Shown here in pieces: positions 12,103-52,783 of a stretch of 60,251 nucleotides of DNA. Positions within the stretch are counted from its first letter, which is position 1, and every line of letters starts with the position of its first letter. The stretch is from a virus: positions 1 through 60,251 of the IMG/VR virus record IMGVR_UViG_3300042478_002844. The stretch is one strand, 5' to 3'. The position numbers and the translations under genes are program-made. Below the pieces are notes generated by a model. The model saw only the letters and a program-made list of their open reading frames with translations. It did not search any database and was not told the origin of the DNA.

Positions 12103-12537
12103 ATGAGAGAAATGCAACCGTCAAATCAAGGAAACATAAGTTCTCAACAAGATCCGATAGTTCTTAAAAGCCTAGAAAATGCAAATCAGGCTATTTCTTT
12201 ATTAAGTCAATATATAGTAAAAAATGAAGCATTACAAAGTGAAATAATGCGCAATCAAATTCTTATATCTCATATCAAAAGAAGTTTAGATGAATTAAAT
12301 TATGATATTAAGAAGCATTATTCAGAAGATAAGGTTGTAATGCATAAAATAAACAACATAGTTGACAACTCAGACATTAATAAAATTGCTGAAGCAGTTA
12401 AGGACATTCGATTGGCTATGGGTTTAATGAAGATTATAGCAGCCAATATAACTTCTTATAGTGGTGATCCAGAAGTTTGGTACAGATATACTGATGTTGT
12501 TAAAAGACTTGAAGACAAGGCTAATGTGCTGCCTTAA
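12103..12537 (+). CDS. Unknown helical protein, 144 aa
   Basis: The sequence is nearly all helix-forming, with heptad-like spacing ('SQYIVKNEALQSEIMRNQIL'), and is probably a coiled coil. AAGGAG lies before the ATG. It ends the three-gene rightward group and its stop codon overlaps the stop of the convergent gene at 12534. No function is suggested by the sequence. Confidence 0.7.
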   Translation: MREMQPSNQGNISSQQDPIVLKSLENANQAISLLSQYIVKNEALQSEIMRNQILISHIKRSLDELNYDIKKHYSEDKVVMHKINNIVDNSDINKIAEAVKDIRLAMGLMKIIAANITSYSGDPEVWYRYTDVVKRLEDKANVLP

Positions 12538-13019
12538 TCGTCGTTTTTTGCACCAATAAAATCCCAAGTCATTTTGATATTAGAGTATTTTGATAATTCT
12601 ATCTCGTTAATGAGGTCGTCTATATCTGCCCAAGTTGATCTTCTAGTTCCAAATCTTGTTATTGGATTAAGTTTAGCAAACTCTGGTATTTTTTCATATA
12701 TATACGCGTCGAAATCCAAATATTGCTCTTCTAGAAATTCTTCTAGAGTAATTCCGTATTGCTGTTTTACATATTGAGACATGTCAATAAGTAGTTGTAT
12801 ATTAAAAATAGAATACATGTTTGCGCTATCCCAAAAGCTTTTCTGAGATAACTTTATTCCGCCAAGCATTTCTTTGTATCGATAGTCTGATACTTGTGCC
12901 GTCATTTTATTATTTATAATGTCTTTGCATTCTTCCATTACATAAGCTATTCTTTCTGAAGAAAAAAGAATAGCATGAATAAGATCAATTGTGTATCTAT
13001 ATTCTCCCGGCTTTATCAT
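12534..13019 (-). CDS. Unknown protein, 161 aa
   Basis: This protein is helical and acidic with many Tyr residues, and I do not recognise it. Its ATG overlaps the TGA of the TIGR03790-like gene as ATGA, so it is the last gene of the leftward nucleotide-metabolism block and is probably translationally coupled. Its stop overlaps the stop of the convergent gene, with no terminator hairpin between them. Confidence 0.7.
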   Translation of the reverse strand: MIKPGEYRYTIDLIHAILFSSERIAYVMEECKDIINNKMTAQVSDYRYKEMLGGIKLSQKSFWDSANMYSIFNIQLLIDMSQYVKQQYGITLEEFLEEQYLDFDAYIYEKIPEFAKLNPITRFGTRRSTWADIDDLINEIELSKYSNIKMTWDFIGAKNDD

Positions 13020-14842
13020 GACAATATCATAACCTCTTTTCTGTCTCCGATAACTTCTCTTGAATCATTTAGTATATAAGTAAATTTTACCCATACTTTA
13101 TTCCCCATACTTTTATTTTTTATAAAAGTTCTATTTATAAATCTAATTTTTCTGTCTTTTAATGAGCTAAATATTCCTTGAGCAGGATATGGCTTCATTG
13201 ATTTGTCAAAATCTTCGAATCTCCAATTGTCTGTATCATTATAAGAATAAGAAGTTATAATTGGTTCTTCATCATCATAGTCTTCATAAACTTCTGCTTT
13301 TACTTGAAAATATCCTGTTCCTACATTCTGATCTGGCAGATATGTATCTATCAAAAACATTCCATTTGTTTCAATGTTTGATGGATTTATTTCTTCATAA
13401 ATTTGAGCATTATTTAAGTTTGCATTTACAAATGCGTTTGTCAGTTTGAAATCTATTTCATTTATAGATCTTAAAAAATTTGGAATAGTTTGAGTAATTT
13501 TATCAAAATATGCCACTTCTATATATTTTTTCCATCCTGACAATGCAGGGTCTATTAAAGCTCTAAGAGTAGCGATATTATTTCCAGTTAAAGCAGATCC
13601 GTAATTTTTAATTGCCCACAATTTATCATTTAGTCCAGAATATGTTCCTGCTCTACTTATTAATCTGTTTGATGCCACTGCTCTATTATTAATCAGAGCA
13701 CCTGCTTCGCTCAATTTGTAATGTATCTCTGACCATCCGTCACTTGTAGATATTTTTTCAGGAACTGCCACCGCTCCAGTTACATCTGCAGTCATCATTG
13801 GATCTGCAAAATAAGTCATAGGACAGCATAGTATGGGCGATGCATAATACATTGCTTCTAGTATGGTTGCACCTTGAGATATTGATTGAAAGAATGGCTC
13901 GGGTCTTATCCAGCATGAAACAGATGATTCTCCAACTAAATCGTATGGATCTGCAGAATAAGGATTTATATCCATAACAGAATCAAATTTACTCATCATT
14001 CCTGCAGCAGACACATATCCAGAATTTAGTGCAGCAATAGCTGGACCAAATTCATTGTTAGATCTAAAACTTATAAAAGAGTCTTCATCTGCATTAAAAA
14101 AGAAAACTCTGTTTGCTCTATTTGTATTTCTAAAATAGCTTTGAGTTAAATTTTGAAGTCCAGCTGACCAGAAAAAAGAGTCATTGTTTGCAAATCCAAA
14201 ATCACTTCTCAAATCATCTATTGGCTCTGATGTAGTAAAATATTTAGATATGTACTTAGATATAAATTTTTCTTCAAACTCTTGCAATTCAGCAGCATAC
14301 ACATCATATGAGAAGTCTTCTTTTAAGCTCCATCTATCAAAATACAAAGAACCATCAACGGTTATACCATTTCTGTAAATTGAAAAATCAGATATCTTCT
14401 TTCTCATCAGAGTAAAATTTGGCATGTCATGTTGACATGTAGGAAAAACTCCAAAATTATACATTTGAGATGTTTTAGTGTTTTTTCTATAAGCAGGGTT
14501 GTATACGGGAGATCCTTCAGAAAGAAACATAGAAGAAACAGCCGAGCAAGACGATATGACTCCATATTCAGATCTATATCCAGATGGAATTCTGTATCCA
14601 AGAACGCATCCTTGTACTAATTCGCCAAATCCACCTAATTCTTCGATCTTAGCTCTTAGTGGATTTAAAATCTGATCTTCAAACGCTATCCTATCATTTA
14701 AAATGCTCGTAGTAAAAGTATCGACCCCCAACATATTGGAGGTCGGCACTTGTCTCATGTATGCAAATTCTTGAGCCAGATTTACACTGTCTTCATCTCC
14801 AGAATTGTATACATAAATGATGTTAGATGACTTTAAACTCAT
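13016..14842 (-). CDS. TIGR03790-like protein
   Basis: This is a 608-residue protein. The N-terminal part, 'IIYVYNSGDEDSVNLAQEFA', followed by 'RQVPTSNMLGVD' and 'VQGCVLGYRIPSGY', matches what I remember of TIGR03790. Those proteins open with a 'hhhhYN...DSv.ia.yYa..RgIP..N' strand and later have an 'EA.Y.s.pfl...GDP' segment; here 'TILEAMYYASPILCCPMTYF' is followed by 'ADPM'. The family is uncharacterised but is reported to occur in genomes that carry exosortase. The C-terminal ~150 residues look like a beta domain. No signal peptide is seen, unlike many bacterial members. It overlaps dut (ATGA) and the next gene. Two PEP-CTERM genes lie at 51351-52783 in this window. Confidence 0.6.
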   Translation of the reverse strand: MSLKSSNIIYVYNSGDEDSVNLAQEFAYMRQVPTSNMLGVDTFTTSILNDRIAFEDQILNPLRAKIEELGGFGELVQGCVLGYRIPSGYRSEYGVISSCSAVSSMFLSEGSPVYNPAYRKNTKTSQMYNFGVFPTCQHDMPNFTLMRKKISDFSIYRNGITVDGSLYFDRWSLKEDFSYDVYAAELQEFEEKFISKYISKYFTTSEPIDDLRSDFGFANNDSFFWSAGLQNLTQSYFRNTNRANRVFFFNADEDSFISFRSNNEFGPAIAALNSGYVSAAGMMSKFDSVMDINPYSADPYDLVGESSVSCWIRPEPFFQSISQGATILEAMYYASPILCCPMTYFADPMMTADVTGAVAVPEKISTSDGWSEIHYKLSEAGALINNRAVASNRLISRAGTYSGLNDKLWAIKNYGSALTGNNIATLRALIDPALSGWKKYIEVAYFDKITQTIPNFLRSINEIDFKLTNAFVNANLNNAQIYEEINPSNIETNGMFLIDTYLPDQNVGTGYFQVKAEVYEDYDDEEPIITSYSYNDTDNWRFEDFDKSMKPYPAQGIFSSLKDRKIRFINRTFIKNKSMGNKVWVKFTYILNDSREVIGDRKEVMILS

Positions 14843-15312
14843 GTAATACCAGAAGATCCAAATCCTCCAGTAGATCTAACAGTATTTGTATCCACAATAC
14901 CATCTACCATTTGGATATCTTCTCTTCTAGTAATTACAAGCTGAGCGATTCTGTCACCTTTCTTATAAAGAGTTAAAGAATTTACATCTTTTGCTTCTAT
15001 ATTTACGACGGGCCTAAATGCAACCTGTATTGAGCCCCTGTAGCCTTCATCTATAACTCCAACAGAATTTGACAAAAATAGGTCGTACTTTTTTATACTA
15101 GATCTTGGGTAAACAAAGCCACAATAGCCTGCTGGAAATTCTACTCTGATTCCAGTATCATAAATAACATTTACAACATAATCTTGTCCTGCAATTGTCC
15201 TAATCTCAAATACAGGTTCAGATGATGCCGTAAGATCCCATCCAGAATCATTATGATTTGCTTTCTTTAAATCTCTTGCATCTTGATTGATTTTTTCAAA
15301 ATTAATATTCAT
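14839..15312 (-). CDS. dut: dUTP diphosphatase
   Basis: This trimeric-type dUTPase hydrolyses dUTP to dUMP and diphosphate, keeping uracil out of DNA and feeding dTMP synthesis by ThyX. All five motifs are present: 'DSGWDLTAS' (1), 'PRSSIKK' (2), 'GVIDEGYRGSIQVAF' (3), 'GDRIAQLVI' (4) and 'RSTGGFGSSG' (5, Gly-rich arm). Motif 1 has W where Y or F is usual. I chose ATG at 15312 (AAAGG upstream), giving 157 residues, the normal length. The longer frame starts at a GTG overlapping the nrdJ stop. The gene lies between nrdJ and the TIGR03790-like gene in one leftward unit. Confidence 0.95.
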   Translation of the reverse strand: MNINFEKINQDARDLKKANHNDSGWDLTASSEPVFEIRTIAGQDYVVNVIYDTGIRVEFPAGYCGFVYPRSSIKKYDLFLSNSVGVIDEGYRGSIQVAFRPVVNIEAKDVNSLTLYKKGDRIAQLVITRREDIQMVDGIVDTNTVRSTGGFGSSGIT

Positions 15313-15325
15313 GCTAAAACCTTTC

Positions 15326-17875
15326 TTATCCACACTTTGACCATCCGCAAGACTTACATATAATGCAACCTTCTTGTCTCACAAGAGCGCATTTTTCTTG
15401 AGTCTTACAGCTTCCACAGGTTTCACCAGACACTTCTGTACCATCTGCTATGTACTTCTTCAAAGCACGTGATATGCTTTTTGAGAACCCATGCATTGAG
15501 CCCTCTACCTTTTCAAGCTGATGCACAATAAATTGTACATCAGCACCATGTCTTAATGCTGTAGAGATCATTCTTGTTAAGGCTGCTTCTTCTTCAGATA
15601 ATCTGTCTCCAATTTTCTTTATTGTCATTTTATTACCGTGCTTATCTTGTAGATCAGCTCGGTAGTGACCTCTTGCTTCTTTAGTAAGACTGCCTTCATT
15701 AAAGTTCTTTGTAATCAACATGTCTGACTCTTCTTCAGAAATATGATTCATACTAGCAAATACCTCATATGGCTTGCCTTTGAGCAACCCAACAATAACA
15801 AAATATGGACTATTCTTTACAGAGCAATGATGAATGTCGCAAGTTAAAGTTTCAGGTCTCTTAGGAGCTTTTGTGATTGTGATCTCATCATTTGTTTCCT
15901 TCTTCTTTGTTTCTGCTACAAGTACGCCCGTTCTGCAGCCATCTCTATAGATGGTAATTCCCTTGCATCCACTCTTCCATGCAGTTCTATAGATTTCATC
16001 TACTGCTTCTACAGAAACATCATTCGGCAGGTTAAGTGTGCTTGAGATTGCATGATCTAAGTGCTTTTGAGCAACAGACTGAAGATAAACTCTTTTTCTC
16101 CAGTCAAGCTCTGGGGCAGTTGATCCCTTCCACGGACTCTTGTTAAGATCCGTTTCTCCCGTAATATCCATCCACATTTTTACCTTAGGAGGATAGATCT
16201 TAAATTCCATCCAGTGATCCCCGTTTTGATCAACAAAGTCACTTCTAAAGCCACTATCTCCAGGATTTCCCTTTTTTCTTCTGATATAAGGTTCAACCAT
16301 AAATTGAGGCTCAATGCCACTAGAAGTCTGTGTTAAGATAGACACGGACCCAGCTGGTGCAGTTGTTAGTAACGCAATATTTCTGCGTCCATACTTTTGC
16401 ATATCTGCATATAGCTGTGGATCTTCATCCTTTATCCTATTTAAGAATGGATTATTCTTCTCTAGATCTGGATTCCATATTGGGAATGCTCCAATTTCCT
16501 TTGCCATATTTACGCTGCTTCTATAAGCAGAAAGCTTTAAATTTTTATAGATTTTCTCTACCATATCTATGCCCTTATCGCTTGTATAAGGCATATTGAG
16601 GGCAGCAAGAGTATCTCCAATCGCAGTAGCCCCTGTTCCAGTTCTGCGACCGTTTAGGGCAGCATTTCTGATATTATTCCAAAGTTTTATTTCTCTAGAC
16701 TTAACTTCTTTATTTTCTGGATCACTCTTAATCTTGTCTAGTATTCTGTCAATACATTCGATTTCAAGATCTACAAGATCATCCATGAGTCTCTGGCAAA
16801 TTTCTGAATCTTCATTAAACTTTTCAAAATTAAAGCTTGCTTTCTTAGTAAATGGATTTTCAACATATCCAAATGCGTTCAATAACATCAATCTGCAACT
16901 ATCGAATGCAGACAATGGTATCTCAGAGCACGGATTTGTACTAATAGTCTTAAATCCAAGATCTTCATAGCAATCGGCTGGACTTTCATTAATAATATTA
17001 TCCCAGAATAACAATCCTGGCTCTGCCATGTGATGTGCGTTTTCAACGATAACACTCCACACCGATCTTGCATTAACTTTCTTAGAAACAGATGGAGAAT
17101 CTGAATCTACTGGCCATCTCTGCTCATATTCCTCATCTGCATCAACTGCCTTTAAAAACTCGTCTGTGAGCCTAATTGATATATTTGCTCCAGTTACCTT
17201 TGTCAGATCCCTCTTTACTTTTGCGAATTCTAGTATGTCAGGATGATGAACGTTAAGAGTAATCATCAACGCTCCACGACGACCAGCCTGACCAACTTCT
17301 CTAATTGAATTGGAATAACGCTCAGCAAACGAAACAACTCCTGTGCTAGTTCTTGCGGCATTCTTGGTTGGTGCTCCAGCTGGTCTTAAGTGAGATATAT
17401 CAATACCCACTCCTCCACGTCGCTTGCTAATCTGTACAAGATTTTCATCCGCTTCCATAATAGAGCCGTATGCATCTAATGGAGAATCAACGACATAACA
17501 ATTGCTTAATGAAATAAACTGATGCTTGTTTCCAATGCCATACATTGGAGAACCCTGTGCGACAATTTTATTAAAACCTTTTAGTTTTTCATAGATAAAG
17601 TCTTCAGTCAGGGGGTTCTTAAACTTTTTCTTTTCAATTCTTGCAAACTCTTTTGCAATTCTTCTATGCATGTCATCTGGATCTTTTTCAACAATTTGTT
17701 GATTTTGATTCTGTAAAGCATATTTGTCAACAAACACTTTTGCAGCTAGTTCATCGCCATTAAAATACTTAGAACTAGCCTCGTTTGCTTCCACATAGCT
17801 ATATACTGATTGTTTGATCTCACTGACAGCATTTATAACACCTGTCTCAGAGACAGTTTGTGCATTTTTATCCAT
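15326..17875 (-). CDS. nrdJ: Adenosylcobalamin-dependent ribonucleotide reductase, class II
   Basis: This enzyme reduces ribonucleotides to deoxyribonucleotides using a B12-derived radical and works with or without oxygen. At 849 residues it has typical NrdJ length. The active-site Cys lies in 'NPCSEIPL' (residues 314-321; the family usually has NPCGEI). 'LSNCYVV' (~124-130) holds a likely redox Cys, 'KRRGGVGIDISHLRP' is the conserved Gly-rich strand, and 'TTAPAGSVSILTQTSSG' is the phosphate-binding region. The C-terminus has a Cys-rich zinc-ribbon-like tail ('CGSCKTQEKC', 'CIICKSCGWSKCG') that may also supply the redox cysteines. No separate activator gene is needed. No cobalamin riboswitch is evident in the short gap upstream, so cofactor supply probably depends on the host. 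Confidence 0.95.
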   Translation of the reverse strand: MDKNAQTVSETGVINAVSEIKQSVYSYVEANEASSKYFNGDELAAKVFVDKYALQNQNQQIVEKDPDDMHRRIAKEFARIEKKKFKNPLTEDFIYEKLKGFNKIVAQGSPMYGIGNKHQFISLSNCYVVDSPLDAYGSIMEADENLVQISKRRGGVGIDISHLRPAGAPTKNAARTSTGVVSFAERYSNSIREVGQAGRRGALMITLNVHHPDILEFAKVKRDLTKVTGANISIRLTDEFLKAVDADEEYEQRWPVDSDSPSVSKKVNARSVWSVIVENAHHMAEPGLLFWDNIINESPADCYEDLGFKTISTNPCSEIPLSAFDSCRLMLLNAFGYVENPFTKKASFNFEKFNEDSEICQRLMDDLVDLEIECIDRILDKIKSDPENKEVKSREIKLWNNIRNAALNGRRTGTGATAIGDTLAALNMPYTSDKGIDMVEKIYKNLKLSAYRSSVNMAKEIGAFPIWNPDLEKNNPFLNRIKDEDPQLYADMQKYGRRNIALLTTAPAGSVSILTQTSSGIEPQFMVEPYIRRKKGNPGDSGFRSDFVDQNGDHWMEFKIYPPKVKMWMDITGETDLNKSPWKGSTAPELDWRKRVYLQSVAQKHLDHAISSTLNLPNDVSVEAVDEIYRTAWKSGCKGITIYRDGCRTGVLVAETKKKETNDEITITKAPKRPETLTCDIHHCSVKNSPYFVIVGLLKGKPYEVFASMNHISEEESDMLITKNFNEGSLTKEARGHYRADLQDKHGNKMTIKKIGDRLSEEEAALTRMISTALRHGADVQFIVHQLEKVEGSMHGFSKSISRALKKYIADGTEVSGETCGSCKTQEKCALVRQEGCIICKSCGWSKCG

Positions 17876-20884: not shown

Positions 20885-21730
20885 CTACTCTTTACTAAAA
20901 ACATGGATTTTTTCAGTAAAACTATCTTTTCTTCTTTTGCTCCAAGATTCTGGAAAAACAGGTTCACAACCTATCGATAGCATGTCTTTCAATACTTCTA
21001 TTTCTTCGTTTGTAAATTTGATAGAGTCTAGCTGCGAAGACTTCCAAATACTCATAATGTTTGGAGCAATTTCATTTATAATTTCAAATATAGCATCTGC
21101 AAAAACTCTTATTTCATACTGAGCGTGATGGTCCATTCGGAGTCTTAAAAATTTAAGTAAATTATGCAAATTCATAACCCAATACATTTCAGTATAAACA
21201 TTAACTGGAATTACCATTCTTGCAAGCTCTCTAGAAAGACCTTGTGATAAAAGCTCTTTATAAAGCTTATAGCTTTTCTCAGAATGATCTAATATCTGAT
21301 GAGATATTTGGTCTGCATTTGGAACAACTTCTTCTGAAGAGCTTTGCTTATTTGTAGCACTTTGAGTTGTTAGACGAGAAGGCTCCGGTATGTAAAAAAC
21401 GTCTTCCATCACTGAATATCTTGCAGAGTATTCATTAACGCTGGCTGTTCTGTGCCTTATCCATTGTCTAGCGACAAAAATAGGCATTTTAATATGAAAT
21501 TTAAGGGTTACTCCTTCAAATGGACTAGTATGATCATTTTCTAATAAGTATTTTACTAATCCAATATCTTCTCTAAATGATTTTGTTCCACTCCCGTAAC
21601 TTACTCTTGCCATTTGAACAATAGCGGTTTCAAATGAATTTTCTTCATTTGTTAATGGCATAGTATCAACAAGACGAACCAAGCCATGATCTAAAACTTT
21701 TCTTTCATACTTATTAGTCGATGAATCCAT
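20885..21730 (-). CDS. thyX: Flavin-dependent thymidylate synthase
   Basis: ThyX makes dTMP from dUMP using FAD, NADPH and methylene-tetrahydrofolate, without producing dihydrofolate. The signature R-H-R-x-x-S-x-N-E-x-S-x-R-Y is complete: 'RHRTASVNEYSARYS' at residues 92-106. 'MARVSYG' near 40 and 'LLENDHTSPFEG' near 64 are also typical. The length (281) is normal for phage ThyX. It heads the leftward operon that also carries nrdJ and dut, giving a complete route from ribonucleotides to dTMP. Confidence 0.97.
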   Translation of the reverse strand: MDSSTNKYERKVLDHGLVRLVDTMPLTNEENSFETAIVQMARVSYGSGTKSFREDIGLVKYLLENDHTSPFEGVTLKFHIKMPIFVARQWIRHRTASVNEYSARYSVMEDVFYIPEPSRLTTQSATNKQSSSEEVVPNADQISHQILDHSEKSYKLYKELLSQGLSRELARMVIPVNVYTEMYWVMNLHNLLKFLRLRMDHHAQYEIRVFADAIFEIINEIAPNIMSIWKSSQLDSIKFTNEEIEVLKDMLSIGCEPVFPESWSKRRKDSFTEKIHVFSKE

Positions 21731-28276: not shown

Positions 28277-28559
28277 GAACTTCTACCTTTCCATTTAAAA
28301 CACTAAATTTTTGATTACTATTCTTTACCTTAAACATACTATTGCTTACTACAAAAACATTTGGTCCTGCAGACTCTATTAACGAAGGCTGCTCCACGCT
28401 TCTTTGTATAAATTTATTTATTTCGTCTTGGGCTCTTTCTTCAGAACTCAAGTACATCTCATCAACATAATGCCAGCCATCTTCTTCTTTTTCAAAATGC
28501 ACAATAGATGGGTGTACGTTTGCCTGCTTTTTAAAAAAATTAGATTCAATTTTAATCAT
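28269..28559 (-). CDS. Unknown small protein, 96 aa
   Basis: This protein begins 'MIKIESNFFKKQANVHPSIV', a short aromatic and basic opening ending in K-K-Q-A-N that resembles other N-termini here. The rest is a small alpha/beta domain. It overlaps both neighbours (8 bases downstream, 4 bases upstream), so it is embedded in the leftward operon. No motif was recognised. Confidence 0.65.
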   Translation of the reverse strand: MIKIESNFFKKQANVHPSIVHFEKEEDGWHYVDEMYLSSEERAQDEINKFIQRSVEQPSLIESAGPNVFVVSNSMFKVKNSNQKFSVLNGKVEVHV

Positions 28560-29683
28560 ACTTCCTTACCTATCCACGCTGTTGCGCTAGTCCTTCCATC
28601 CACATTTAAAGACACAAAATATTCTTTAGATATACTATTTTTTATTATTTCTCCCATTTTTGCCTTTGTCTTTTTATCAAAAATAATCATGCGGTCTTTT
28701 CCGATTGGACGCCAACACCAATTAATTTTGTTTTCTAGCTCAAAGCCCCCATCATTTTTTAAATTTACAATAATGAACTGCTTAGCATGTATTTTATTTA
28801 TAAGTTTAATTTTTATATTTTTATCAAATATTTCTTCTTTTTTACTTACGTGGTTTATTTGTTGAGATTTTTTGGATGTATTATTAAAAACCTTACTGCT
28901 CACATTGTCGCTATTATCAGCTGGGATCCAGCCTTTGGGAAACCACATGTTTTGATTAAATTTTTTAAACCAAGGGTATGGGTAATAAACTTTTCCATTT
29001 TTATTTAAAAATCCACCCCACCAATGAAAAGTAGAATTTGATATAATACAATATTTTGCTTCTGACAATATTGGTAAGCAAAGTGGATATTCTATATAAT
29101 CATTTACAAAAAATAATCTATCATCATATTTTTTAAATATTTTTTTATAATGCTGAGTGTCTTCTTGGGGGACAACACTTACAGCAATTTTTAAGTTTTT
29201 TGGTAATATCTCTATTATTTTACTATAATAGCTAAAAGATAATCTTTCATCTATATTGTTATAATATGTTTTAAAATCTCCACCCCTTATATTTAAACTT
29301 ATATAATTATTGTCTTTAATTTTAAATTGATTTATAATTTTATTGCAATTATTAAATGTATCTTTTTGATAACGCAAAACATTTCTTATATATGTTTTTG
29401 AATTTTCGAGGTTATACTGAAAGTTGAAACCTCTGTAGATATGCAGTCCCTTACAATCTTCTTTGGCATAAACGATTTTTAAATTGATATCAGGGTCAAA
29501 AATTGAAAGAAAATCGTCTGATACTTCTCTAATTTTTTTTCTCTTGTGATCATAGCCACATTTTTTTGATTCTAATAAGTATAGCTGATTGGCTTTATTA
29601 TTTTCTTTTATGTTAGATAATGCTAAAGATAGTCCAAACAAAAAATTGCCAACACCCCAATTTGATTCTACTGCAACAGACAT
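28556..29683 (-). CDS. GT11-like alpha-1,2-fucosyltransferase with C-terminal extension
   Basis: The first ~270 residues resemble glycosyltransferase family 11, which transfers fucose from GDP-fucose to glycans. The N-terminal 'WGVGNFLFGLSLAL' matches the family's 'GLGNQ.FQ...a..LA'. 'LNIRGGDF' (130-137) stands for the GDP-fucose-binding H-x-R-R-G-D, with N for H and G for the second R. 'ISNSTFHWWGGFL' (~214-226) matches 'SNS.FSWW...L'. An extra ~90-residue domain follows. The changed H-x-R-R-G-D motif leaves activity uncertain. It could modify host surface glycans or phage proteins. Confidence 0.7.
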   Translation of the reverse strand: MSVAVESNWGVGNFLFGLSLALSNIKENNKANQLYLLESKKCGYDHKRKKIREVSDDFLSIFDPDINLKIVYAKEDCKGLHIYRGFNFQYNLENSKTYIRNVLRYQKDTFNNCNKIINQFKIKDNNYISLNIRGGDFKTYYNNIDERLSFSYYSKIIEILPKNLKIAVSVVPQEDTQHYKKIFKKYDDRLFFVNDYIEYPLCLPILSEAKYCIISNSTFHWWGGFLNKNGKVYYPYPWFKKFNQNMWFPKGWIPADNSDNVSSKVFNNTSKKSQQINHVSKKEEIFDKNIKIKLINKIHAKQFIIVNLKNDGGFELENKINWCWRPIGKDRMIIFDKKTKAKMGEIIKNSISKEYFVSLNVDGRTSATAWIGKEV

Positions 29684-37265: not shown

Positions 37266-37285
37266 AGAAAGAATTGAGGTACAAT

Positions 37286-37723
37286 ATGATTTCACCAGAA
37301 CTAATTAGCATGATTGGTGGCGGAGCAACCGGATTCTTGTTCCGCTTTATGGCACAAAAAAGTCAAGATCAAAAAGAAATGTTTGAACGCCTCATGACGG
37401 CGAACAAACAAACAACTGAAAATCAAGATAAGGCGGTACAAAGAGTCTCAATTGACGCTGGTAGAGCTGTTCGTCAAGTCATCGTTCTAACAGTGCTCTT
37501 TGGAGCTTTTGCAGCTCCATTTATTTTACCATTCTTTGGCGTCCCCACATTTGTTGAAGTAGACGTAAAAAATCCAGAAGGCTTGTTTGGACTAATACCT
37601 GCGACTGGTAAAAAAGCTTTCGTAGAAATTAATGGATTTTTCTGGACATCAGAAAACAGAGAAGTTCTGTTGAGTATAGTTGGCTTTTACTTCGGATCTG
37701 CAGCAGCTAATAATAAATCATAA
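37286..37723 (+). CDS. Small multi-pass membrane protein, holin-like
   Basis: I chose ATG at 37286 (TTGAGG upstream), giving 145 residues. The N-terminal 'MISPELISMIGGGATGFLFR' is weakly hydrophobic. A strong membrane segment lies at ~66-88 ('VLTVLFGAFAAPFILPFFG') and another near the C-terminus ('LLSIVGFYFGSAAA'). I recall similar proteins ('..SM.GG...GF.FK') in several large marine and freshwater phages, where they are unassigned. A holin role is possible because the next gene is a small lipoprotein with a membrane helix, but there is no direct evidence. Confidence 0.6.
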   Translation: MISPELISMIGGGATGFLFRFMAQKSQDQKEMFERLMTANKQTTENQDKAVQRVSIDAGRAVRQVIVLTVLFGAFAAPFILPFFGVPTFVEVDVKNPEGLFGLIPATGKKAFVEINGFFWTSENREVLLSIVGFYFGSAAANNKS

Positions 37724-37733
37724 GGAGTTCTAA

Positions 37734-38042
37734 ATGAAATACATATATCTACTAATTTTAGTCATCATTTTAACTGCTTGTGATACGGTTCCAGTTATTG
37801 TTCCCGATAACACTAGCGATAATGTAGTCATGATGCAACTCAAAGATGAAATAGCTCAAACTGGCGCTTCAAAGCCATCTTATGGATGGACGCTGTGGTA
37901 TTTTCCCGTTGTAATTATCGCTTTCATGTGGGCATATAGAGAATTTGTGCGTAAGCCAATGATATGCGATGATGGATTGGTCAAAGACGAAAAGGACAGA
38001 GATGGCGACGGAGTTGTTGATAAGCCAACAAATAATTCGTGA
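37734..38042 (+). CDS. Small lipoprotein with transmembrane helix, spanin-like layout
   Basis: This 102-residue protein has a lipoprotein signal ('MKYIYLLILVIILTAC', lipobox L-T-A-C, Cys 16). A short stretch of ~37 residues is followed by a membrane helix ('WTLWYFPVVIIAFMWAY', ~53-69). The tail has an EF-like 'DRDGDGVVD' loop. A lipid anchor in the outer membrane plus an inner-membrane helix is the layout of unimolecular spanins, which fuse the membranes at lysis. The periplasmic part is shorter than in known ones. AAGGAG lies upstream; the stop overlaps the next start. Confidence 0.55.
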   Translation: MKYIYLLILVIILTACDTVPVIVPDNTSDNVVMMQLKDEIAQTGASKPSYGWTLWYFPVVIIAFMWAYREFVRKPMICDDGLVKDEKDRDGDGVVDKPTNNS

Positions 38043-41741: not shown

Positions 41742-42509
41742 ATGAAGGAAGCGATAATTGGAATCGTCGGAGCATCAGTACTTAGCATGTCTGCCATGGC
41801 ACAGACAGCTCAGCCTGCTGTTGCGACAAACGACAGTGGATTTGCATCTTTCTTCAAGCTAAACGACTTTAGCTTTGATGAAAAGATCAATTTCTACAAC
41901 CTGGATACTGGGAATGTCACCCAGTTTGTTCAGCAGCTTAATTGGCAGACCCCGATTAAGGACCTTACCACCCACTTGACACTGCCAGTGTACACTGATG
42001 GCGTCACTGGTGCAGGCATGCTTGATTTGGGCGCTGATTGGACATTTGTTCACAAGCCATTGAGCTTTATGGACAAGGCTGACTTTTCAGTAGACGTTAA
42101 GCTTCCAACCAGCTCTGCTGGCTACGGCGGCAACAGTGTTAACGTTGTGCTCGGATTAGCAACAGAGGGAACTACCTTTGTTGACAAGCTGTCTTGGGGT
42201 GCTGGCATGAACTGGGAATTTAACACCAATGGTGACTATATTCCAGTTTTTGGAGGATTTACTACTCAGGACATTATGAATGTTAATGCAGATCTGGCCT
42301 ATCAGCTTGTTGATAAGCTTGATCTTGCAGTTAATTATAATTTCTGGTATCTTGATAGTGGTGAAAGTTTGAGCACAATCGGTCCTGCTCTTAATTGGGA
42401 TGTTTGCCCCAATGCGAACCTCAACTTCGGAGTTGATGTTCCATTCGCTCAGTACAGCGGCTCACCGCTTGATCTTATTGTTCGTTTTGGTGGTTCAGTC
42501 AAGTTCTAA
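41742..42509 (+). CDS. Outer-membrane beta-barrel protein
   Basis: This 255-residue protein has a signal peptide ('MKEAIIGIVGASVLSMSAMA', cleaved after A-M-A) and then alternating polar and hydrophobic strands, aromatic-rich ('VNADLAYQLVDKLDLAVNYN'). It ends 'DLIVRFGGSVKF', with the C-terminal Phe that BAM complexes recognise. No porin family was recognised. AAGGAG precedes the ATG. C-ending codons are more frequent than in neighbours, which suggests strong expression or a recent host origin. It could change host surface properties, for example by blocking other phages or allowing solute entry. Confidence 0.75.
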   Translation: MKEAIIGIVGASVLSMSAMAQTAQPAVATNDSGFASFFKLNDFSFDEKINFYNLDTGNVTQFVQQLNWQTPIKDLTTHLTLPVYTDGVTGAGMLDLGADWTFVHKPLSFMDKADFSVDVKLPTSSAGYGGNSVNVVLGLATEGTTFVDKLSWGAGMNWEFNTNGDYIPVFGGFTTQDIMNVNADLAYQLVDKLDLAVNYNFWYLDSGESLSTIGPALNWDVCPNANLNFGVDVPFAQYSGSPLDLIVRFGGSVKF

Positions 42510-45741: not shown

Positions 45742-48456
45742 CTATCTAGCTGCTCCGCACTTAGTGTGCTTATACCAGTTTATGCTTGCAAATTTTGGAC
45801 TAGATTGTGTCAAATCTAAATGCCAATATGTGGCATTTTTATATTGCACTTTTTTCATACCATATCTCATTGCTTTTTCATCATATAATTTTTTGTACAA
45901 CTCCATTGTTGAAGCTTTTGCATACTGTCTCCAGGTAATATACAAGTATGAAGCAGAAGCAACAAACAGGTGTTTTATGCCAAGCCGACTGCAGTACATA
46001 AATATCTCATTGTAAAAAGTGTCTAGCCAATCAGCAAATCTATTTTCAACTTTAGATTTAAATTCTGAAAGATGTGGTCTATTTAAGTGAGCATTGGAAG
46101 TTGCCATAAAATTGGCAACATCATTTATTTGTTTTTGCATTGCTTGCATTTTGTGTTCTATAGCCAATAATTTACTCTTATCGTTTATGAATGGATCAAC
46201 TCTTTCGGCTTTTTGTTGTTCTATCTTTTCAATAGCTTTGCTAATTTGCTGAACAAAATTCTGATCATTTGCGTTAGCTATTTTTTGCTTTAATTCTTTT
46301 ATTTTCAATTCATAGTATTGATCAGGAGTTAATCTAATTAAGTTTTTACTTATTTTGTCATGCTCTTCTTTTAACTTAGCAAGCTCTTGAGATAAAGACT
46401 CTAGACTTTTTAATGGATCTTTCATTCTTGGAGTATTCTGCATAATATCACTTTGTATCTCATTGATGTACATTATTTTATTATATAGATCTACAGTACC
46501 GCCAATCCATCCAATAAAATCGTAATGACTTTCTTGGCTTAACGCCCCTTCTTCATTTGATACCCATTCTTGTTTTGGAATGCTATATCCATGAAAATTA
46601 AGTCCAGTTTGTCTATCAAACACTGTTTCCATTTTTACTGGGTCTGATGCGCTCTTTTTAGGATAAATTGCAATATGGAATGACTGATAAGGAACTTCAC
46701 TTGGCATTGGCACATCTTTGCGCTCAAATGCTCCTCCTCCAGGATATCTTGCGTCAAGTCTCAATTGAGATATATGCTCAAATGGCTTCTGAATAATTCC
46801 CTCTTGTTTTGCTTTTTCTGATTCAGCATTTTCAAATGAGCGCAAACTTATTGAAGGATCAGACAATATCTTCTTTTGTTCTTCTACATGCTTTGCGATT
46901 TCTTCACGCTTGGATCTTTCTTCTGCTCTTCTTGCTTCTTCTTCTCTTTTTAGTTGCTCTTGTTGTTCACGCATCACCTTTTGTTGCTCTTCATATTCTC
47001 TCATTGCTTCTATGAGATCTGCATAATTTGGATTTTCTTCCGTTATAGACTTCTTCATTTTTTCAGCGTCTTTTGCTGGCATGTCTGATATGATTCTCTC
47101 AATTTGTTGCAGATTTGAGCCTATCTGTTCATTAGTCATTTGTGCAACAAGATTACGTTCTTCAGAAAAAATGGAAAGCAAATTTGGATCTGAAGCAACA
47201 GTCCATTTAATTACTTCTATTTGCTTTTTTATTTCTTGTACGTATTCATCTACTCCAATAACATGATGTTCTCTAGCCATGTCTTCAAGATCTTTTGCAA
47301 TACCCTCCCAATCATTTATTCCAAAATTTACAAACGGATTACTTAGGTTAACATTTACTTGACCACTCTCCTCATCCCATTCAAGCCAGTCGTGACTTTT
47401 CATTCTTTCTGTAAATGTTTTTCTTCGGTAGTGACGAACATTAGGATCTTCTTCCTCTGGAGGTAGCTCTTTTTCAGCCCATCTTCTGTCTGCGTAATCA
47501 AAGTCTGATGCAGCGCTTTCAGCTTGATTTTGTGCTTCTTCTTCTGCAAAACGATTTTTGTTGTTCTCAAACCATTTATTTTTTACGTCATCTTCAAAAA
47601 AACTTTGTATCTCTTCATCTAGATCTGTTTTATGATAAGGCATTTTTTCTATATTGCTTACATAAAAAGTTGCAACATTTTTATATGCGTCTCTAGCTAT
47701 TGAAAGAGCTTCATCTTCACTAAATGTTTTATCATTTGAAAAACCGCCCTGCATAGCACTCAAGGCCGACCTTTGAACTATCATTTCATTCATATTATAA
47801 TTGTATCTATCAAGCCAATTTTTTAATGTAGCGGATGAGTTCTCAGATATAACCTTTCCAATTAAATTATCTGCGGCGTCTCTTGCAGTCCAGCTCATTG
47901 CCTTCAACCCGCTAATAGAATCAATCATACCTATCCAATAGTTGGACGTATCTGTTTCTCCAGATCCTAATGCTGCAGCTATTTCCTGTAAAGTAACTGC
48001 TTCTTTTGATTTATTCTCCGCTCTTGAACTTGTAGGATAACTGAACAAATTTGCAATAAAGCTATCTTCATCAAATTTTTCCATCACAAACTTAAGGATA
48101 TCATCTTCATCTATCTCGCTTATATTTTCCCAAAATGTATCATCATTAAATAAGCCTTCATAAGATTCATACAAATAATCAGAATCTACAAACTGAGATA
48201 TAGCCTCATAATCCGGCTCTGGATCTAATTTAGCGTTCTCTAGCTCATATTGCATATGACTAAAAGCATTTAACAAAAACTGAAGCTTATACTTCTTTCC
48301 GCCCAATTTTTCAGAGTTTTTCTTCATAGCTTCGTATTCAGGACCCATGTCAAATAGGTATTGTTGACCTGGAGTGTGACTGAACTGTAGCAGTCTGATT
48401 ATGTTGGTAGGGCTGCACTTAAGAGTATGAGATTGAGCGAATTTATACCATTGCAT
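45742..48456 (-). CDS. Giant polyvalent-like protein with EIQSD motif, 904 aa
   Basis: The protein opens 'MQWYKFAQSHTLKCSP' (tag A) and ends 'FASINWYKHTKCGAAR', so the tag appears at both ends. The first ~450 residues are helical and acidic. A Glu/Arg-rich coiled coil spans ~500-560. The C-terminal ~330 residues contain 'IGWIGGTVDLYNKIMYINEI' and 'QSDIMQ' (~650-675), which resembles the 'EIQSD' element of phage polyvalent proteins. Another coiled coil and a final domain ('DWLDTFYNEIFMYCSRLGIK', 'YWHLDLTQ') follow. The C-terminal half is clearly homologous to the next gene upstream. Polyvalent proteins are thought to be injected effectors. Confidence 0.7.
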   Translation of the reverse strand: MQWYKFAQSHTLKCSPTNIIRLLQFSHTPGQQYLFDMGPEYEAMKKNSEKLGGKKYKLQFLLNAFSHMQYELENAKLDPEPDYEAISQFVDSDYLYESYEGLFNDDTFWENISEIDEDDILKFVMEKFDEDSFIANLFSYPTSSRAENKSKEAVTLQEIAAALGSGETDTSNYWIGMIDSISGLKAMSWTARDAADNLIGKVISENSSATLKNWLDRYNYNMNEMIVQRSALSAMQGGFSNDKTFSEDEALSIARDAYKNVATFYVSNIEKMPYHKTDLDEEIQSFFEDDVKNKWFENNKNRFAEEEAQNQAESAASDFDYADRRWAEKELPPEEEDPNVRHYRRKTFTERMKSHDWLEWDEESGQVNVNLSNPFVNFGINDWEGIAKDLEDMAREHHVIGVDEYVQEIKKQIEVIKWTVASDPNLLSIFSEERNLVAQMTNEQIGSNLQQIERIISDMPAKDAEKMKKSITEENPNYADLIEAMREYEEQQKVMREQQEQLKREEEARRAEERSKREEIAKHVEEQKKILSDPSISLRSFENAESEKAKQEGIIQKPFEHISQLRLDARYPGGGAFERKDVPMPSEVPYQSFHIAIYPKKSASDPVKMETVFDRQTGLNFHGYSIPKQEWVSNEEGALSQESHYDFIGWIGGTVDLYNKIMYINEIQSDIMQNTPRMKDPLKSLESLSQELAKLKEEHDKISKNLIRLTPDQYYELKIKELKQKIANANDQNFVQQISKAIEKIEQQKAERVDPFINDKSKLLAIEHKMQAMQKQINDVANFMATSNAHLNRPHLSEFKSKVENRFADWLDTFYNEIFMYCSRLGIKHLFVASASYLYITWRQYAKASTMELYKKLYDEKAMRYGMKKVQYKNATYWHLDLTQSSPKFASINWYKHTKCGAAR

Positions 48457-51205
48457 TTTTAACCTTCTTGTACCAATTTACTTTTGCGTACTTTGGCATA
48501 TTCTTTGTCAAATCCAGGTGCCACCATTTTCCCAATTTAGTCTGCACAAATTCTCCCTTAAATTCTTGAGCTCTTTTGTCGTATATCTTCTTGTACACTT
48601 CTACAGCACCAGCGTCTGCCAATGCTCCCCATCTATCCTTCAAGCCTTCAGACGTTATAATGTAAATATTTTTTATACCAAACCTAGCACTGTATGAAAA
48701 AATTTCATTATAAAATACATCTATCCATTCAGAAAATTTATTTTCAATTTTTGATCTTACATCATGTAGATTTGGTTTTTTCTTCCAATGGTTTCTTGAA
48801 TCTGTTTCAAAAGCTAATAATTTGTTGTATTGGTCTTCAATTTCTTTTTTATGTTTTTCTAATTCTTCTATTTTTTGTCTTATTTTTTTCCATGGATCTT
48901 CTTTTGCTTCTTTTTGTTTTTGTAATTTTTCAATAGCAATATCCATTTGTTTTTTAAATTGTTCGTTTTGCGCTTTGTCTCTTTTTTCTTCTAGTTCTTT
49001 TATTTTTTTATCATAAAAAGCATCAATGCCCATCGCTGATTGAGAGTTTAAATTTTCTTTTTCTTTTTTTATTTCATTTTCAACCTGAAGGTAATCTTCA
49101 TTTATTTTTTTCTTTGCTTTTATTGGATCTTTCATGAAGTTTGAAAATTGCATTACATCACTTTGCAGCTCAACAATGTACATATTCTTGTTAATATTGT
49201 CTACATACCCTCCCACCCATCCAAGTCCATAGTTGTGATGTCCTTCTCTGCTTATAGTAAACATAGAATTATGATGAAAATTTAAACCCTGTGGTGAAAG
49301 TGCTTCACCAACTAATGGATTTTCATTCATTTCTTTTTTTGGAAATATTACTATTTGGAAACTAGCGGGCTGTAAAATTCTTGTTGAAAGTCTAGGAAAA
49401 TATTTTTGCGCATTTTCATAGTTCTGAGTTAGAGAGCTAAAGGCTCCTTGACCTGGAAAAATACCAAATCTTATACTAGCTGAGTGCTCAAATGGAGAAT
49501 CTAGTATTTTTTGTTCTTTTGATTTTTTAAGCTCTTCTTCTCCAAATTGCCTATTAGGATCAACATTTAATAAAGAGCGGACATTTTTTTCAGTATCTTC
49601 TGCATTTGGGTCATAATCTAAATGCTCATCTGGATTTTCTAGTACTTTATTAAGTGTGTCAATTTCTGTTTTTATTATTTTTAATATAGTATTTTTTACA
49701 GAATTTACATAATTAGGATCATTGAATAAAGATGGATTTGCACCAAGTGCTAATGTTATAAAAGAAGGCAACGTAGCTGCACCACTTATTATTTGACGTT
49801 CATAGTCTGCTGATTCAATTTCTTTTTGTGCATCTTTTAGTAAATCGCGCTCTAATTCTACAGGACTCTTGCTGACACCCCAAATGCCATTATAATATCT
49901 ATAGGCGGTAACTGCAGCATGTAAGTTTCCAGCATAATACAGATTATTATTTTCTGCTATTTTTTTACTTTGTCTTAATTCTAATCTTTGTGTGCTTTCA
50001 TTTTTTTCATGATATTTTTTAAATATTGCAGCAAGATCAGGGTTGCTATTTATTATATTGTCAATAGTTTTTAATTTTGTACTTATGATTGAAAACAGAT
50101 CTTGTCCAGATATATTCCTATTTGTTCTTTTACCTTGCATGTCCAATCCACTTGCGTCAAAAGCAGCCCACATATCGCTTATCATGCGACTCCATTCTTC
50201 AACGGTCATTTTTGCAAAGGGACCACCACGCCTCATGGCGACAAAAGTATCATAATCAGCAACTCTTTCAAATAGGCCTCTTGCAACATGGTGAACGGCG
50301 TCTGTCCCTTGATGACTATCTGTTGGTAAATACCGTTTTTCCATAACTTCAAATATGGCTTTTGAATATCTCTGTTTTAAATTTTCGTTTACTCTTATAT
50401 AGTGGAAAAAACTTACCGCAGCAGTTTTGATGTCATCAAGCATGCCAAAATACACACCTGATTGCAAATTTTTTATAAATTGAGAAATAAATTCAATTCC
50501 AGCATAACTTAGTATGCATAGTAGCAAATATTCATCTGCATTTTTTGCAACAGAAGTATCCAATAGCAGTGTATTGGCCGTATTGACATCTTTGTGCTTA
50601 GCATCATCAATTAACTGAAGTATTCTAGATCTGTTATAACGAATATAATTTGGATAGTTAAGTAGGGCAAATTTTTCTATAAAATTTTCTTTAGAAATTT
50701 CTTGGGCTTTTATTCGATTATTGTTGCCCGCTTGCCGTAAGTCATCTTCCATTGATTCAAACATTTTTAGCAAGAATCCCAGTGCTACTCTATTGTTTTG
50801 ATTCCATTTTAAGTTATATATTAGTTGCGTTATGTATTCATTTCTAGCACGACCTGTCTCAGATGCCATGGGAGAACAGTTAAAGTATGAACCACAAAGC
50901 ATATTCCGCAATGACGTGTCATCTGACCTAAAAATTAAGTTAATGTTTTCGTAGCTTAATGGTATCTGATTAGGCACTAAGCCTAATCGGTTGGACTCTT
51001 CTATTTTTTCTCTTACTAAACGGTCGCCTCTTTCAATATCTTCTTTTTTAATTCTCTCTTCTTCTGATGTGACATTTTGCTCACGCTCCATAAGATTGCG
51101 AAGCTCTTGTTCATTATATGAAGCATCTGCGCCTTCAGTTTTTTTACCAAACCTATCGCGAAGCTTTCTAAACCAATTAAGTTGTGCAGTTTTTTCCGTA
51201 TCCAT
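48443..51205 (-). CDS. Giant polyvalent-like protein with ELQSD motif, 920 aa
   Basis: This is a paralogue of the gene at 45742-48456. The start has 'EKTAQLNWFRKLRDRFGK' (tag-A-like) and the end 'YAKVNWYKKVKNAMV'. The first ~550 residues are mostly helical and not alike between the two. From about residue 560 they align: 'GLGWVGGYVDNINKNMYIVE' and 'LQSDVMQ' (~660-680) against the EIQSD copy, then coiled coils, 'EWIDVFYNEIFSYSARFGIK', and 'WWHLDLTKNMPKYAKVNWYK'. The stop overlaps the start of its partner by 14 bases, so they form a tandem duplication. It may be a virion-carried multifunctional protein. Confidence 0.7.
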   Translation of the reverse strand: MDTEKTAQLNWFRKLRDRFGKKTEGADASYNEQELRNLMEREQNVTSEEERIKKEDIERGDRLVREKIEESNRLGLVPNQIPLSYENINLIFRSDDTSLRNMLCGSYFNCSPMASETGRARNEYITQLIYNLKWNQNNRVALGFLLKMFESMEDDLRQAGNNNRIKAQEISKENFIEKFALLNYPNYIRYNRSRILQLIDDAKHKDVNTANTLLLDTSVAKNADEYLLLCILSYAGIEFISQFIKNLQSGVYFGMLDDIKTAAVSFFHYIRVNENLKQRYSKAIFEVMEKRYLPTDSHQGTDAVHHVARGLFERVADYDTFVAMRRGGPFAKMTVEEWSRMISDMWAAFDASGLDMQGKRTNRNISGQDLFSIISTKLKTIDNIINSNPDLAAIFKKYHEKNESTQRLELRQSKKIAENNNLYYAGNLHAAVTAYRYYNGIWGVSKSPVELERDLLKDAQKEIESADYERQIISGAATLPSFITLALGANPSLFNDPNYVNSVKNTILKIIKTEIDTLNKVLENPDEHLDYDPNAEDTEKNVRSLLNVDPNRQFGEEELKKSKEQKILDSPFEHSASIRFGIFPGQGAFSSLTQNYENAQKYFPRLSTRILQPASFQIVIFPKKEMNENPLVGEALSPQGLNFHHNSMFTISREGHHNYGLGWVGGYVDNINKNMYIVELQSDVMQFSNFMKDPIKAKKKINEDYLQVENEIKKEKENLNSQSAMGIDAFYDKKIKELEEKRDKAQNEQFKKQMDIAIEKLQKQKEAKEDPWKKIRQKIEELEKHKKEIEDQYNKLLAFETDSRNHWKKKPNLHDVRSKIENKFSEWIDVFYNEIFSYSARFGIKNIYIITSEGLKDRWGALADAGAVEVYKKIYDKRAQEFKGEFVQTKLGKWWHLDLTKNMPKYAKVNWYKKVKNAMV

Positions 51206-51350
51206 AATATTAAAAATAAGTATAAAATATTTACTATTATTATCTATATTATCTTTCTGTTAAAAAATCACAAAAGGATTTTACTGTACCAATGTGTATT
51301 TTTACTATTGAAATATTTATATAATTCTCTTTAAGTATCGGGGGGTACAC
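51206..51350. promoter_or_regulatory. Divergent intergenic region
   Basis: These 145 AT-rich bases separate the leftward 920-aa gene and the rightward PEP-CTERM pair, so they should hold both promoters. AATAAGTATAAA (51215-51226) and TTAAGTATC (51331-51339) contain a motif seen in other gaps in this window. TATAAT lies at ~51319-51324 without a well-placed -35 box. I see no hairpin. Confidence 0.35.
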
Positions 51351-52139
51351 ATGGGGATAAAAAAGCCAGATATCGTTACAGCAGACGTTAGTCCAATTCA
51401 TAATCAGAGCACTTCTGGGGGGTGCTCCACTTGTGCTAGAATATGTGAAGAAGCTAAGGCCAAGGTTAAAAGCTTGGAGAAGAAAGTGTACATCATGACA
51501 ATAGTGTGCACTTCTGCCATTACGCTACTTGGAGAGAAGGGCATTCAATCCTTGATAACAGCACTTAACGGTGTAAATTCAGCTATGTCCGCAGCTGCTG
51601 AAACAGGGTCAGGCGAACCTGGACAAAAAGATGGCAATAAAAATTCATCAGATAGCAAGCAATCTAATAACAATTTTTTAAATCCACGATATCAAAGGCC
51701 TTGGCAGCCTCCTGTTAAGCTGGAAAATAAAGAACAGACTCGTGGGTATCGACCAACAGACGAACTTGCTCGTTTCTCAAAAGAAAATAAAATTGGTGGA
51801 GATAAACCTGTTGAAGAACCCATATCTGTGATTGTAGATCAACAGAAGACGACTCAAGAAATAATAAAAGCTGCAATGTCAAATGATACTTCCTTGATTG
51901 CTGGATTAGCTAATCAAAGCCCAGTTGCATTTGCAGACCCTTATGCGGTGTTTTTTACTCCAAGCCTGCTGCCATTTGATGTATACAGCACAACTCTTGC
52001 TCTGGGCAACAATTATGGATTTGGAGAATACTACGGGATAGATACTGGGTCTTCATATGTAGTTCCATCTGTGCCATCTCCTGGAACCGTTACTTTACTA
52101 TTTTTTAGTCAATTTACAAACACAAGAAAGAGATCATAA
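51351..52139 (+). CDS. Protein with short PEP-CTERM-like tail
   Basis: This 262-residue protein has a Cys cluster, 'GGCSTCARICEEAKAKVK' (~24-41), then a hydrophobic helix ('VYIMTIVCTSAITLLG', ~46-61) that could be an internal signal anchor. A low-complexity linker follows (~85-150). The end, 'VPSPGTVTLLFFSQFTNTRK' followed by R-S, has the order of a PEP-CTERM signal (P-x-P, hydrophobic stretch, basic end), although the hydrophobic part is short and broken by polar residues. It is coupled (TAATG) to a clearer PEP-CTERM gene. It may be sorted by a host exosortase, but this is weaker than for its partner. Confidence 0.6.
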   Translation: MGIKKPDIVTADVSPIHNQSTSGGCSTCARICEEAKAKVKSLEKKVYIMTIVCTSAITLLGEKGIQSLITALNGVNSAMSAAAETGSGEPGQKDGNKNSSDSKQSNNNFLNPRYQRPWQPPVKLENKEQTRGYRPTDELARFSKENKIGGDKPVEEPISVIVDQQKTTQEIIKAAMSNDTSLIAGLANQSPVAFADPYAVFFTPSLLPFDVYSTTLALGNNYGFGEYYGIDTGSSYVVPSVPSPGTVTLLFFSQFTNTRKRS

Positions 52140-52783
52140 TGTTTAAGATTTTTTTTGCATCATCTGTATTATTAATTTCGTCTTATGTCCAAGCAGGGTT
52201 GACGAATGGTGGTTTTGAAAGTTTTCCAGTCGTAGGTTATGGTTTTTATTCTGGAAGCGGAGACCCCACAACGGGCTGGGCAACAACAGCCCCGGACAAT
52301 ACACTTGAAATTTGGTCCGATGGATTTTTAGGAGTTCCAGCATATGAGGGCAGCTATTTTGCAGAATTGAATGCGAACTACGCTTCAACCCTATATCAGG
52401 AAGTTAATGGTCTTGGTGATTTTAACAGCATTAACTGGCATTTTGCTCATCGTGGAAGAGATGGAGTTGACACCATGCGCCTTACAATCACAGATCTAGG
52501 TGCAGATCAAGTTTACGGTAACGGAGATGATGTCACCATATTCCAGCAAGAATACTCTGCTGGAAATACTGCGTGGGTATTCAATTCAGGGACAATTATC
52601 TCAATAGGCAACAAGACGCGTTTTGCCTTTGAAGCTGTAAGCGCAGTTGGAGGCACAACTCAAGGAAACTTAATAGACGATTGTGATTTCGGACTTGATG
52701 TTGTTATTCCATCTCCAGGAATGCTATCTCTGATTTTGATAGCTGGACTATGCGGAGTAAGCGGACGTAAGCGCAAGTCGTAA
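52139..52783 (+). CDS. Secreted PEP-CTERM surface protein
   Basis: This 214-residue protein has a signal peptide ('MFKIFFASSVLLISSYVQAG') and a beta-rich domain that begins 'GLTNGGFESFPVVGYGF' and has 'YEGSYFAELNANYASTLYQE', the pattern of DUF642/galactose-binding-like domains in secreted bacterial proteins. The end, 'VIPSPGMLSLILIAGLCGVS' then 'GRKRKS', is a good PEP-CTERM sorting signal (P-S-P, helix, basic). Hosts with exosortase cut and export such proteins to the exopolysaccharide surface. Presence in a phage suggests capture from the host and a role in changing the host surface. A terminator follows. Confidence 0.85.
   Translation: MFKIFFASSVLLISSYVQAGLTNGGFESFPVVGYGFYSGSGDPTTGWATTAPDNTLEIWSDGFLGVPAYEGSYFAELNANYASTLYQEVNGLGDFNSINWHFAHRGRDGVDTMRLTITDLGADQVYGNGDDVTIFQQEYSAGNTAWVFNSGTIISIGNKTRFAFEAVSAVGGTTQGNLIDDCDFGLDVVIPSPGMLSLILIAGLCGVSGRKRKS

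Follow-up and report, generated by a model that had tools for sequence, protein, structure and literature searches.

A diverged TIGR03790 relative and a separate gene pair with PEP-CTERM-like tails in an uncultured phage

TIGR03790 is an uncharacterised NCBIfam family associated with exosortase, and sorting by exosortase has so far been studied as a system that acts on a bacterium's own proteins. A sequence-only reading of DNA from an uncultured phage had placed a TIGR03790-like protein in a nucleotide operon and two genes with PEP-CTERM-type ends elsewhere on the same DNA, and had proposed that the phage may carry parts acting on the exosortase pathway of its host. We asked what the phage protein is, whether the tagged genes encode exosortase-type substrates, and whether the two belong together. 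Throughout, the window denotes the whole stretch analysed, 60,251 bases at 37% GC (IMG/VR virus record IMGVR_UViG_3300042478_002844).

Family matches in the window include a SNF2-type helicase, a sigma factor, ThyX (20885-21730, profile match), the ribonucleotide reductase NrdJ, dUTPase, a LysM/endolysin-type protein, a tail-fibre-like protein and a subtilase; most other genes tested returned no match. The protein of interest, 608 aa long, is encoded by an intact reading frame on the minus strand (13016..14842) and follows the genes for the B12-dependent NrdJ (15326..17875, -) and dUTPase (14839..15333, -), both identified by profile matches, bearing out the nucleotide operon. Overlaps of 4 bases join the 608-aa gene to both neighbours, its start to the dUTPase gene and its stop to a 161-aa gene with no assigned function (12534..13019, -). 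Two relatives of the 608-aa protein were found in IMG/VR, with 85% (L002) and 60% (L130) identity. Each is again 608 aa long, and its gene is flanked by dUTPase and a counterpart of the 161-aa gene, whose products are 77% and 60% identical, so that length and operon position are constant in three related phage contigs; from this shared arrangement, the order nrdJ-dut-608-161 appears ancestral to the lineage. Elsewhere in the window we noted a D-isomer-specific 2-hydroxyacid dehydrogenase-like gene, unusual for a phage (58734-59750, -; PF02826), and a pair of neighbouring genes, 904 and 920 aa long, that gave no confident family match (45742-51205, -).

TIGR03790 was the sole NCBIfam match of the 608-aa protein in hmmscan (E 1.9e-12, 47.3 bits), covering profile positions 2-177 of 316 and scoring under the curated cut-off of 67 bits; both phage homologues were likewise below it (45.6 and 49.2 bits). 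Cellular TIGR03790 members from gammaproteobacterial and Verrucomicrobia-phylum samples were aligned and the resulting profiles compared with that of the phage proteins. Using hhalign, phage residues 5-351 aligned to the whole TIGR03790 domain with a score of 98.7 (P 1.9e-12), whereas none of 20 column-shuffled controls exceeded 20.1 and the reversed sequence scored 17.6. The reverse search, with the phage alignment against 241 genomes, gave 8 weak matches, 7 of them at TIGR03790 match sites. Of 39 hallmark columns in the joint alignment, the three phage proteins all retain 17, among them N13, S19, A23, R30, P33, N36, G275, G281, P299 and P348. The PGA..HL.S block, 73-96% conserved in the family, is absent from all three, with substitutions at its P, G, A, H and S (90-96% in the family) in every case, and the final GDPL..P motif keeps DP and has lost its G and last P.

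The remaining 257 residues (352-608) form a C-terminal extension without a family match. As had been read from the sequence, the protein has no signal peptide: its N-terminus lacks a hydrophobic stretch, and the highest 19-residue Kyte-Doolittle mean is 1.04 (residue 327). Nothing matched in Pfam, PHROGs, GenBank phages or plasmids, and the single match among PDB sequences was an enolase (E 0.097); assignment to another family was therefore rejected. A caspase/gingipain-like fold for TIGR03790, an idea taken from motif order, was supported neither by Pfam searches at E<=10 nor by PDB sequences, and the structure model of the 608-aa protein (pLDDT 28) was unusable. Together, these alignments make homology to TIGR03790 very likely. 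Because the match spans the full domain while the PGA..HL.S block is lost and the score falls below the cut-off, we describe the protein as a diverged homologue rather than a member, and its activity probably differs somewhat from that of the family. The earlier assignment thus stands for relationship over the whole domain and fails for membership, and no confident match to a different family took its place.

We then examined the premise that TIGR03790 occurs only with exosortase, in a sample of 241 genomes from the phylum of a Verrucomicrobia MAG, scoring exosortase as PF09721. It held in this sample: 122 of 123 TIGR03790-positive genomes carried exosortase, compared to 57 of the 118 genomes negative for TIGR03790 (Fisher P 1.3e-22, indicative only, as the genomes are related). 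No exosortase was detected in any of 11 phage records tested, the window phage among them, and the phage would therefore need that of its host. Among other viruses, the gamma-type TIGR03790 profile had zero matches and the Verrucomicrobia-type profile one, a TIGR03790-like reading frame at the end of a prophage-like contig that carries baseplate-like genes (L133 1-948) with a MYXO-CTERM-like end (GGGGCTWGVP...ALRRRKGRAT); this is probably a host gene flanking a prophage. A search for closer cellular relatives of the 608-aa protein found none in 398 Pseudomonadota genomes, but the search was insensitive, since the genuine TIGR03790 gene of G012 also escaped it.

These features can be accounted for if the 608-aa gene was taken long ago, probably from an exosortase-bearing bacterium, its product then lost export along with the conserved H/S block, and the gene became fixed in the ribonucleotide reductase-dUTPase operon of one phage lineage. 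The protein would now probably be cytoplasmic with a recruited role, and its presence hints that ancestors of the phage met exosortase-bearing hosts. Alternatively, it may be a virion or assembly protein built on an old alpha/beta domain, with a role unrelated to the host surface, a serious possibility that we nevertheless rate as somewhat unlikely. Such a role would suit three strongly conserved homologues of exactly 608 aa, all without a signal peptide, a C-terminal region that looks strand-rich in the low-confidence model, and a gene that always precedes the same 161-aa gene; neither the operon shared with nucleotide-metabolism genes nor the lack of any matching phage structural family, both of which speak against it, is decisive. 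A more specific version, tail sheath and tube for the 608- and 161-aa pair as suggested by their lengths, was dropped for lack of family support, and the 161-aa protein appears mainly helical on reading its sequence, which also counts against it.

The tagged genes lie 36.5 kb from the 608-aa gene and form their own plus-strand unit, apart from that of the 608-aa gene. P1 (51351..52139; 262 aa) is preceded by GGGGGG, a likely ribosome-binding site (51340..51345, +), and encodes a protein with a Cys-rich N-terminus, one internal hydrophobic segment and a PEP-CTERM-like tail, PSPGTVTLLFFSQFTNTRKRS (52074..52136, +), recognised from sequence and hydropathy. P2 (52139..52783; 214 aa) overlaps P1 in TAATG. 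Its product begins with a signal-peptide-like segment, MFKIFFASSVLLISSYVQA (52139..52195, +), as judged from its sequence and hydropathy, and ends in the tail PSPGMLSLILIAGLCGVSGRKRKS (52709..52780, +), supported by sequence, model and hydropathy; P1 has no cleavable signal peptide. A terminator-like hairpin follows P2 (52805..52834, both strands); 2 such hairpins were found against 1.4 expected.

Among 159 window reading frames of at least 60 aa, only P1 and P2 fit a simple C-terminal pattern, P.P-N11-18-[RK]2+, and every P2 (15/15) and P1 (9/9) sequence has all three tail elements, namely proline-type motif, hydrophobic stretch and basic end. Some relatives in other phages have clearer tails (VPEPST...RRR; VPAPG...RRRR), including a P1 relative in L015 that ends in VVPEPSTISVFLAQSFFNQRRRS with a literal VPEPST; P1 tails are weakly hydrophobic, with a best 12-residue mean of 1.3-1.8. 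Neither TIGR02595 nor PF07589 recognised the window proteins, even with the threshold relaxed to E<=1. P2 relatives reached 12.1-13.4 bits with TIGR02595 (cut-off 16), up to 16.2 bits with PF07589 (cut-off 20.7), and 12.8 and 11.7 bits with MYXO-CTERM (cut-off 20). The PEP-CTERM-type ends reported at 51351-52783 are thus upheld as tripartite tails and not as matches to either PEP-CTERM model. One more protein from a phage contig, with no relation to P1 or P2, combines a signal-like N-terminus with a PEP-CTERM-like end, VVPSPGTFALALCSCALGSNRRRK (L024 9163-9843, -).

The AlphaFold2 model of P2, built from 38 sequences (pLDDT 85), comprises a beta sandwich (residues 34-185), a C-terminal helix (193-209) and the basic end. 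Its top Foldseek matches were carbohydrate-binding modules (CBMs) or CBM-bearing enzymes (best E 3.1e-8; TM-score by target length about 0.7), and on this modelled fold P2 may bind sugar. Of the cellular relatives found for P2, a Methylobacter protein (L033 5932-6633) is the nearest, 46% identical over residues 18-213. It scores above the TIGR02595 cut-off (18.5 vs 16), and its gene adjoins a second one of PEP-CTERM type; the same genome encodes one TIGR03790 member and two exosortases that score above the cut-off. Elsewhere in the window, a glycosyltransferase family 11-like gene (28556-29683, -; PF01531, phrog_2644) could possibly serve surface-sugar modification by the phage, and a 255-aa protein (41742-42509, +) with a signal-peptide-like start, the look of an outer-membrane barrel and the end ...RFGGSVKF had zero Pfam or PHROG matches and is perhaps a phage-encoded outer-membrane protein.

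P2 relatives, approximately 60-70% identical, occur in about 20 viral contigs, and P1 lies immediately 5' of P2 in most of those whose upstream DNA could be inspected. Two P2 contigs carry T4-type genes (family B polymerase phrog_262, UvsX phrog_97, DnaB-like helicase phrog_19), and the order in these phages is holin-like, lipoprotein, P1, P2. The window encodes homologues of the first two, a holin-like membrane protein (37274..37723, +), 88-90% identical to the gene two upstream of P1-P2 elsewhere, and a lipoprotein-like gene (37734..38042, +) whose product has a second hydrophobic segment and which shares up to 76% identity with the gene immediately 5' of P1-P2 elsewhere; here they sit 14 kb from P1-P2 rather than adjoining them. 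In the flanks available for comparison, only these four genes were strongly conserved between the window and the P1-P2 phages, with dUTPase, ThyX and an HNH protein distantly in common, and the four therefore fit a functional module exchanged between phages. None of the P1-P2 phages tested had a TIGR03790 match, and P2 was not seen in either of the other contigs with a TIGR03790-like protein, each of which is a fragment.

On the basis of these tails and relatives, we consider it fairly likely that P2 is an exosortase-type substrate for a host exosortase. The best reading is that the phage makes P2 for the host envelope, as a lectin-type protein that is secreted and bears a PEP-CTERM-like tag, with P1 as its partner. 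A plainer account holds that P1 and P2 are ordinary membrane-anchored accessory proteins of the envelope or of lysis, with the tail as anchor and exosortase not involved. Their company of holin-like and lipoprotein genes in other phages is consistent with this, as are the failure of the window tails to match any sorting model and the weak hydrophobicity of the P1 tail. However, an anchor does not need a proline motif at a fixed distance, which all 15 P2 relatives have, nor does it account for the literal VPEPST in a P1 relative or for a TIGR02595-positive closest cellular relative in a genome with exosortases, and we regard it as unlikely. Still less probable is that the tails address another C-terminal sorting protease, of the rhombosortase or myxosortase type: the MYXO-CTERM scores of P2 relatives point that way, but their TIGR02595 scores come closer to cut-off, the P.P motif has no invariant cysteine, and the Methylobacter relative is a PEP-CTERM protein. 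Chance similarity to TIGR03790, which would suit a sub-cut-off score and a half-covered profile in hmmscan, is highly improbable and was rejected on the shuffled and reversed hhalign controls, which the full-domain match far exceeds, with all three homologues giving the same match and the reverse search leading back to TIGR03790 genes.

Overall, we favour, as a reasonably probable account, a two-part explanation combining a domesticated TIGR03790 relative with separate P1-P2 substrates of exosortase type. During infection, P2 would be exported by Sec, its C-terminal helix would keep it anchored in the inner membrane, the proline motif facing the periplasm, and a putative host exosortase would process it, such that the carbohydrate-binding-like domain may reach the surface or the exopolysaccharide. 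From that position it could shield the cell surface from superinfection or weaken the matrix when the cell lyses, purposes that we propose very tentatively. P1 may take the same route or anchor the complex. The 608-aa protein is linked to the exosortase pathway by family history and the common genome alone; loss of the conserved block, the separate transcription units and the lack of co-occurrence in the other contigs, which are fragments, all argue against a tie to P1-P2. We find doubtful a unified scheme in which a transferable envelope module in unrelated phages displays a phage lectin through host exosortase, with the TIGR03790 derivative acting on the same pathway. Of the original proposal that phage parts act on this pathway, the substrate-like P1 and P2 keep their place and the 608-aa protein only a doubtful one.

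We found no report of phage-encoded exosortase substrates in the open-access literature searched. Given that a pair resembling exosortase substrates turns up in phages of very different kinds, some phages may use the surface-sorting machine of the host to coat the cells they infect. If so, a module common to unrelated phages would mean that phages use the exosortase route to alter the infected-cell surface, small tagged phage proteins would become probes of the pathway, and exosortase would be a candidate host factor.

Comparison with known systems places the two parts differently. With the TIGR03790 family, the phage protein shares an alignable whole domain, N-terminal hallmarks and later glycines and prolines, whereas it is phage-encoded, scores below the cut-off, has the block replaced, carries a C-terminal extension and lacks the signal-like N-terminus of cellular members such as that in L059. 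P2 shares a beta sandwich with CBMs (the porphyran-binding CBM 8xmz, CBM4, CBM16, CBM22 and CBM61) at 12-17% identity, without relation at the level of sequence. PEP-CTERM features were used as defined in PMC1569441, where a signal peptide is nearly always present. P1 and P2 differ from such proteins in being phage-encoded and in having mostly PSPG, PGPG or PAPG instead of PEP; the window pair additionally gives no score with the models, and P1 is without a signal peptide. What they have in common is the proline motif, the hydrophobic helix and the basic extreme C-terminus, joined in P2 by the signal-peptide-like N-terminal segment. The PEP-CTERM protein of Methylobacter, a cellular gene with the tail VPVPSTVWLLGSGLLTLIGIRKK and no P1 neighbour seen, has the same domain and the same type of tail as P2.
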